This document shows positions 23,540 to 25,415 of a DNA stretch of 64,000 bases, piece by piece. Under the pieces are notes generated by a model. The model made no database searches and was not told the DNA's origin. It saw nothing but the letters and a program-made list of their open reading frames with translations. The stretch lies in NCBI GenBank assembly GCA_947258795.1, contig CAMYJU010000001.1:62001-126000 (forward strand), given 5' to 3'. Within the stretch, counting starts at the first letter, position 1; each line of letters opens with the position of its first letter. A program made the position numbers and the translations under genes. Origin of the DNA: an uncultured Gammaproteobacteria bacterium (GTDB lineage Bacteria; Pseudomonadota; Gammaproteobacteria; DRJJ01).

Positions 23540-24271
23540 TTAACAGTCACCGGGTTCGATGCATCCCTGTGGTTCGGGCAGGCCGGCAATACGCGAACCC
23601 TGGCGAGCCGGTCCTTTTGGAAACAGGCGATACAGATGTTCCTTGTCAGCGCGTTCCGGTCCGATGTCCTCGGCCATATAACGCATCATGATCCGGATCA
23701 TCGGGCTGATGCCATAAGTGAAATAGAATTCACGTAAAAAGTTGATTACTTCCCAGTGATCTTCGCTCAGGGTTATGCCTTCCTTTTCGGCCATGTGTTC
23801 GGCCAGGCGTGAGTTCCAGATATGTATGTCCAGCAGGTTTCCCATATGTGATACGCGGCAGGTTTTGCCTTCAAATTCGAATGACTCGGGGAAATGCGAA
23901 ACCGGTGCGGCCGGTTTTCCCTGGTAACGGTTACGCTCAAGTTCGGCATCCAGATACGGGATTGGCACCCCGGCGATTTTTGAGCCCTGTAGCAATACAC
24001 CACCCGGAAACAGCTGATCGAGATAGTCGTCGGTAAAACGATCGGTGCCGGTCTGTCTTTGCAGATTTCGTTTCAGCAGCTTCTTCACCGGTGCGACGTT
24101 ATAGGCATGATAATAATTGCGCATGGCCTTGATTACGGCCCAGTGGTCCGGGCCTAATGTCAGTCCGTCACGGACGGCCAGTTCCTCGGCGACTGTTTCG
24201 TTCCAATCCGTGAGCCGGGCCAGGCGGCCATCTTCCATCACATCAAAATTCAGGTTTCTTGCTAGTGGCAT
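23540..24271 (-). CDS. Tandem DsrC/TusE-domain protein
   Basis: A 243-residue protein made of two DsrC/TusE-like domains (about residues 5-115 and 130-243); these normally occur singly at about 110 residues. Both halves show the family core: LTDWNETVAEELAVRDG with DHWAVIKAMRNYY in the first, and DHWEVINFLREFY with YRLFPKGPARQGSRIAGLP in the second. The second half keeps the C-terminal sulfur-carrying Cys (C237 in PQGC) but has Ser at the upstream Cys position of true DsrC, so it is TusE-like. A further Cys (C243) ends the chain. The first half has lost both. The start MPLARNLNF has an AGAGGAGT site. Confidence 0.85.
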   Translation of the reverse strand: MPLARNLNFDVMEDGRLARLTDWNETVAEELAVRDGLTLGPDHWAVIKAMRNYYHAYNVAPVKKLLKRNLQRQTGTDRFTDDYLDQLFPGGVLLQGSKIAGVPIPYLDAELERNRYQGKPAAPVSHFPESFEFEGKTCRVSHMGNLLDIHIWNSRLAEHMAEKEGITLSEDHWEVINFLREFYFTYGISPMIRIMMRYMAEDIGPERADKEHLYRLFPKGPARQGSRIAGLPEPQGCIEPGDC

Positions 24272-24410
24272 GATCGGACTCCTCTTGTGGGAAGGGCGGG
24301 AGCAGCTTGATACCTCAGATTCTAGACCATACAGGAGATTCAACCAGCATGACCGGGCAGGTGGTTTCGATGTTGCTATCTAGCTATGTAGCCTGAGACA
24401 ATAAGCAGAT

Positions 24411-25415
24411 ATGAAACAGGTTAAAACCAGCGTTACCTTGCTGATACCCGATTTATTGGATGGTTTGACACCGGAACTGCTCAGGCAACAGATGGCGCTG
24501 ACCAGGCTGATGGATCGGGCTGATGCTACAGTGATCAGGGCACCAGGCTTCGAGCAAAGCCTGGTAGACGCGTTTTATCACGAGTGCCGGAATCCTTCAC
24601 TGGCCTGGTTGAGTCGTTTGGGTGAGCATCAGCAGCCACCGGCTCAAGGGGCGTGGTTACGCGCGGACCCGGTACATATGGCGGCAGATATTGACAATGT
24701 ACTGATGTTCGGTAACCAGGACCTGAACATCCGGCAACATGAGTCCGATGCGCTGATTGATGAGCTGAACCGACATTTTCAGGAACAGGGCTGGCGTTTT
24801 TTCGCAGCCGATCCAAGGCGCTGGTATCTTCAGCTAGCGGAATCACCGCAGCTGCATTGCAGCCCGTTGTCTGAGGTGATCGGTCAGAATGTACGTGAGT
24901 TGTTGCCAGGTGGTCAGGACAGCCTGTACTGGCACCGCACCATCAATGAGATACAGATGCTGTTATATCAGAGTCCGGTCAATCTGGCCCGGCGTGAAGC
25001 AGGTGACAGGGAAATCAACAGCATCTGGTTCTGGGGGGATGGCGAAATGAAAAGGCCAGAGCTGACAGAGTGGTGCGCAGCCTGGGGGGATGATGTACTG
25101 CTACGTGGGCTGGCGATAGCATCAGGCACCGGGCTCAACCCGCTACCAGACCAGGCGGCCACATGGCAGGCGCAGCACACCGCTGGCCGGCATTTACTGG
25201 TGTTGTCAGACCTGGGTGCACTGGCTGAAACAGACCGGGAGCAAGTGTTGCATAGCTATGAACTGGACTGGTTTGCGCCGTTATTGTCCATGTTGCTTAA
25301 CAGGGAGGTTGCAAAGATCGAAATAAACCCTTGTAACGGTACCCTCTATCGGGTCACGCGCGGCCTGTTAGCGCGGTTCTGGCGTCGTAGTAACTGGCTC
25401 GACCAGGTTGTTTAG
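24411..25415 (+). CDS. rpfE: RpfE-family conserved protein
   Basis: A 334-residue soluble protein of the RpfE family (COG4255-type), sometimes misannotated as a phosphoglycerate mutase. In Xanthomonas rpfE lies next to recJ and near prfB-lysS, the same order as here, which supports the assignment. Its molecular function is not known. Visible conserved stretches include the Trp-rich INSIWFWGDGEM, FFAADPRRWYLQL and the PLSEVIGQNVRELLPGG segment. recJ starts two bases after its stop. It is divergent from the tandem DsrC gene across 139 bases. Confidence 0.75.
   Translation: MKQVKTSVTLLIPDLLDGLTPELLRQQMALTRLMDRADATVIRAPGFEQSLVDAFYHECRNPSLAWLSRLGEHQQPPAQGAWLRADPVHMAADIDNVLMFGNQDLNIRQHESDALIDELNRHFQEQGWRFFAADPRRWYLQLAESPQLHCSPLSEVIGQNVRELLPGGQDSLYWHRTINEIQMLLYQSPVNLARREAGDREINSIWFWGDGEMKRPELTEWCAAWGDDVLLRGLAIASGTGLNPLPDQAATWQAQHTAGRHLLVLSDLGALAETDREQVLHSYELDWFAPLLSMLLNREVAKIEINPCNGTLYRVTRGLLARFWRRSNWLDQVV

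Follow-up and report, generated by a model that had tools for sequence, protein, structure and literature searches.

A protein of two fused DsrC/TusE domains with one conserved cysteine, found mostly in gammaproteobacterial genomes that carry dsrA

Why would a sulfur carrier that usually consists of a single domain of ~105-115 aa with a penultimate cysteine (a common trait, not one that the family profiles require) occur twice in one polypeptide, with a reactive cysteine in only one of the two halves? The question is raised by a gene located at 23540..24271 on the (-) strand of the window, the stretch of 64,000 nucleotides of gammaproteobacterial DNA that was analysed, which encodes 243 aa (stop codon included in the coordinates) and departs from the usual single-domain layout. 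Translation starts at the ATG at 24271, 7 bases downstream of a likely ribosome-binding site that was read from the sequence (AAGAGGAG, 24279..24286, (-)). The Pfam model PF04358 was matched twice in the protein (whole-protein score 214.6 bits, E 3e-64, cut-off 24.9), once by an N-terminal DsrC domain that lacks cysteine (23957..24250, (-), 89 bits) and once by a C-terminal DsrC domain with a TusE-type cysteine pattern (23558..23875, (-), 129 bits), and the NCBIfam dsrC_tusE_dsvC subfamily model TIGR03342 was likewise matched in two stretches (210.5 bits vs a cut-off of 53.5). The protein is thus a member of the DsrC/TusE/DsvC family by both profiles, and an earlier note on this DNA, which had described two DsrC/TusE domains in one protein, was right in this and in its residue numbering. 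The two domains are connected by a linker (residues 109-123, 23903..23947, (-)) that was modelled with low confidence and varies across the tandem family. An Rfam search of the window returned nothing.

The earlier note had allowed that a sequencing error joined two adjacent genes, and separate adjacent pairs of dsrC-like genes do exist (in G094 and G214), but the chance that a sequencing or assembly error fused two neighbouring dsrC genes here is practically negligible. The search for proteins with two DsrC domains that had been proposed beforehand, with a tabulation of their cysteines and gene neighbours, yielded 16 full-length tandem proteins, spread over 15 of the 369 gammaproteobacterial genomes that were sampled (11 families, profile search), all free of stops and with the linker at a common position, which excludes such an error; moreover, the halves of these proteins each form one group in the trees. 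A full-length copy with 82% identity was found in a further member of the genus (L039, a record of the metagenome-assembled gammaproteobacterium HyVt-414) and another, with 51% identity, in a different family, and one genome (G099) carries two copies side by side, 326 bases apart (L075:8761-10568). Across the phylum, 398 sampled genomes yielded no tandem besides that of the window. TusE-like forms are known from phages (PMC8190135), and a motif-based scan found no phage-borne tandem; the phage records with two match pieces were rejected as tandems, since the matched places span ~300 bases and therefore represent single dsrC/tusE genes matched by both halves of the query. The ratio of dN to dS was low in both halves, which are thus under purifying selection, for instance in the G196/G179 pair (first half: dN 0.08, dS 0.58; second half: dN 0.04, dS 0.94); for the pair formed by the window protein and its G001 counterpart the synonymous sites are near saturation.

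The cysteines of the protein number three (C138, C237 and C243), none of which is located in the first half. In an alignment of the 16 tandems only Cys237 (23561..23563, (-)), the predicted persulfide-carrying residue, is conserved (16/16), whereas C138 occurs in a single tandem and Cys243, the last residue (23543..23545, (-)), is also found in one of the 16 only, that of this genome. The claim that the first copy lost its functional cysteines holds throughout the family: none of the 16 first halves has a reactive cysteine, and all carry Asp at the sulfur-accepting position (Asp108 in the window protein, 23948..23950, (-)). The second copy was said to retain C237 and to have Ser at the other conserved cysteine position, and indeed both C237 and Ser226 (23594..23596, (-), at the inner position, Cys100 of DsrC) are found in all 16. 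The two tail cysteines of canonical DsrC (CxxxgxpxpxxC) are therefore replaced by a Ser and Cys combination, which had been considered unusual. The inner cysteine is confined to organisms that have DsrAB and is almost always Ala, Ser or Thr elsewhere (PMC3397948), for which reason the second half is better described as TusE-type in its cysteines, with Ser as the normal state of that type. A single C-terminal cysteine combined with Ala, Ser or Thr at the inner position is how TusE is recognised (PMC3397948), and the tandem shows precisely this. Of 65 positions that are conserved among 30 canonical DsrC sequences, 30 are retained in the second half and 19 in the first.

It had also been suggested that C237 and the additional C243 could pair in place of the usual disulfide. 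Both residues are present in the window protein and they are situated on a tail that was modelled with low confidence; nevertheless, a new intramolecular disulfide between them is very unlikely, and as a mechanism of the family it was rejected, because C243 is missing from 15 of the 16 tandems, including the 82%-identical homologue, which ends in CSEPDL and has no equivalent residue. The extra cysteine thus exists as described in this one protein and is probably incidental. The number of residues that follow the reactive cysteine is six in the window protein and varies from 2 to 6 across the tandem family.

The fold prediction that had been proposed was carried out with AlphaFold on 7 sequences, two of them tandems, and gave two helical DsrC-like halves (mean pLDDT 75, pTM 0.55) with low confidence for the linker (109-123) and the tail (236-243); at this pTM and alignment depth the mutual placement of the halves cannot be read from the model. 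A structure search with the model returned eight significant matches, all to solved proteins of the DsrC family (TM by target 0.79-0.89), and as judged from the model the tandem has the DsrC fold. DsrC of Allochromatium vinosum (PDB 1yx3), for instance, was matched with an E of 1.9e-8, a TM by target of 0.87 and 1.9 A. The tandem resembles this protein in fold, in sequence family, in the sulfur-accepting C-terminal cysteine, which in A. vinosum is the only position where persulfuration was found (the penultimate, outer Cys; PMC3397948), and in its occurrence in organisms that oxidise sulfur via reverse dissimilatory sulfite reductase (rDsr). It differs from it in having two domains instead of one and, instead of two tail cysteines, one conserved cysteine followed by 2-6 residues. 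With TusE of E. coli it shares the single reactive cysteine near the C-terminus and the absence of the inner one, but TusE is a one-domain protein of the tRNA relay and the tandem groups apart from it in trees; the window protein also stays below the NCBIfam equivalog cut-off for TusE (174.1 vs 191 bits).

Closer likenesses are found among the paralogues. Several single-domain DsrC paralogues (L022, L055, L056, L061, L069 and L101) end in C(I/V)D, e.g. RQGCRIAGLPMPNDCVDWPG, and have the same short extension after the cysteine as the second half of the tandem, although they have one domain and both cysteines where the tandem has two domains and no inner cysteine. Two of these (L055 in G214 and L056 in G094) belong to adjacent single-domain, two-cysteine dsrC-like genes that lie ~40 bases apart beside an ORF that looks Rieske-like by eye; such gene pairs possibly picture the unfused state. 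The genome of the window itself encodes paralogues without reactive cysteine (L003 and L004) that have the DsrC fold, as the first half of the tandem has, but these are separate single-domain proteins that do not group with that half. The existence of multiple DsrC copies (PMC7787665) and of paralogues that lack one or both cysteines (PMC4287430) was known. The earlier note knew of no described tandem DsrC of this kind, and in the open-access literature we found no description of one either; as far as that literature goes, the tandem is a previously undescribed form of a known family.

When all halves were compared together, the first halves formed one group and the second halves another (support 100/99 for each), and the simplest reading of these trees is that the tandem architecture arose once. 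In a reduced tree the nearest relatives of the second half are single-domain, two-cysteine DsrC paralogues (96/84), and the fact that these have the same short extension suggests that the inner cysteine was lost in the lineage of the second half. Where the first half came from is less easily read: the N and C halves are sisters in the full tree (84/77) and stand apart in the reduced tree, and constraining them together in the latter was not rejected (AU p 0.48), so the first half may be a duplicate of the second or a separate paralogue. TusE of E. coli groups with neither half.

The direct neighbours of the tandem gene in the window are housekeeping genes, and no conserved gene neighbourhood was found among the tandem loci, the flanks being unrelated housekeeping genes that are common to close relatives only; at none of the loci looked at was there an operon link to sulfur genes. 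It had been noted that no dsr genes adjoin the tandem gene, which is true locally but not for the contig as a whole: ~186 kb away, dsrA, dsrE and a canonical two-cysteine dsrC are found, surrounded by ORFs that fit the order dsrABEFHCMKLJOP (the other names were assigned by eye from order and sequence). In this the tandem resembles canonical DsrC, which is encoded in genomes with dsrAB, although the tandem gene is not adjacent to the dsr genes. We observed a clear association at the genome level, with dsrA present in 13 of the 15 tandem genomes vs 103 of the 354 others (Fisher p = 1e-5) and, counted by genus, in 12 of 13 vs 75 of 259 (p 6e-6), where dsrA was called by the curated cut-off in tandem genomes and by a match at E <= 1e-60 in the others, and where relatedness is only partly corrected for. 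One of the two tandem genomes without dsrA is G001 (81% complete), where the contig that is syntenic with the dsr flank of the window genome stops ~1 kb before dsrA, so that the dsr operon was probably just not assembled and the missing dsrA is probably an assembly gap. In the other (G179, 95% complete) a tandem is present and neither dsrA nor dsrE was found. Only ~11% of the genomes with dsrA carry a tandem, which makes it an accessory. Divergent from the tandem gene and directly upstream of a recJ-like ORF, the window also holds a gene (24411-25415) for a protein with weak similarity to cofactor-independent phosphoglycerate mutase, its score of 58 bits being well short of the cut-off of 446.

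On these grounds we favour, with a probability of about 0.55, the reading that the tandem is a two-domain DsrC/TusE carrier that would carry persulfide on a single cysteine, in the manner of TusE, in an accessory role to sulfur oxidation by rDsr. This reading is in line with the presence of Cys237 and Ser226 and of the first-half Asp in all 16 tandems and with that of dsrA in 13 of 15 tandem genomes; the lack of an operon link to sulfur genes at the loci looked at and the tandem of G179, which has neither dsrA nor dsrE, speak against it. C237 would accept a persulfide from a donor of the DsrE/TusD type or from TusA or a rhodanese, and would then pass the sulfur on. Because the inner cysteine is absent, the tandem would not form a disulfide or trisulfide like the one that links DsrAB to DsrMKJOP in the cycle of canonical DsrC, and the two-cysteine trisulfide cycle would be closed to it. 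The first half, which retains the core fold and has lost the reactive tail, is probably a docking or regulatory domain, as was proposed before, and probably offers an additional contact surface by which the carrier would be anchored to its partner. DsrEFH would be a reasonable candidate for this partner, since it is a two-fold hexamer and the sulfur donor to DsrC in A. vinosum (PMC3397948). We also considered, as a tentative and rather doubtful proposal, that a pseudo-carrier domain, in which Cys is replaced by an invariant Asp, fused to a one-cysteine carrier marks a distinct and undescribed branch of DsrC, of which the dead half would mimic the sulfur-free or charged DsrC tail at a site on DsrEFH or DsrAB and in this way gate or buffer the flow of sulfur in rDsr oxidisers.

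Two other functions have to be weighed against that of an accessory carrier. Part of the DsrC fold is helix-turn-helix-like, and a protein that contains it twice might bind DNA as a ready-made dimer for which persulfidation of C237 would be the sulfur signal; a putative role of DsrC in the regulation of transcription, as cited in PMC7787665, the conservation of the half without cysteine and the orphan location of the gene would all fit, as would the matches to LexA, Fur and Rok in the structure search, which are very weak and far below significance. No DNA-binding family, however, was matched significantly by profile or structure, which leaves a regulator unlikely. That the tandem stands in for TusE and delivers sulfur to MnmA for the synthesis of tRNA 2-thiouridine would agree with its cysteine pattern, which is that of TusE, and one tandem (L011) even exceeds the equivalog cut-off (206 vs 191 bits) with a score that is summed over two domains. 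Yet the window protein stays under that cut-off and E. coli TusE clusters with neither half, the distribution of the tandem tracks dsrA and is not general, and several tandem genomes have other single-cysteine relatives of DsrC, so we hold this role, too, to be improbable, and quite so.

DsrC paralogues of unassigned role are numerous in sulfur oxidisers, and the genome of the window has six in addition to the tandem. A fusion in which the half without cysteine is under selection provides a clean handle on what such domains do, and a system within one protein in which it can be asked whether sulfur carriers dock via a second DsrC site. Among the further forms in this genome (G000) there is a paralogue without cysteine that adjoins genes that look by eye like those of nitrite/nitrate reductase (L085:16222-16575), and another, L004, that lies near the dsr cluster. 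A 590-aa sensor, membrane-associated by its looks, combines two PAS domains with a C-terminal DsrC domain (L086:989-2758 (-), contig C24; PF04358 62.9 bits) at the position where one would expect a kinase or cyclase. A divergent relative of 52 bits that ends in NPGEEVQTYMQ, without a tail cysteine (L087:2816-3340 (-), contig C11), groups in the tree with this PAS-fused DsrC domain, on long branches.
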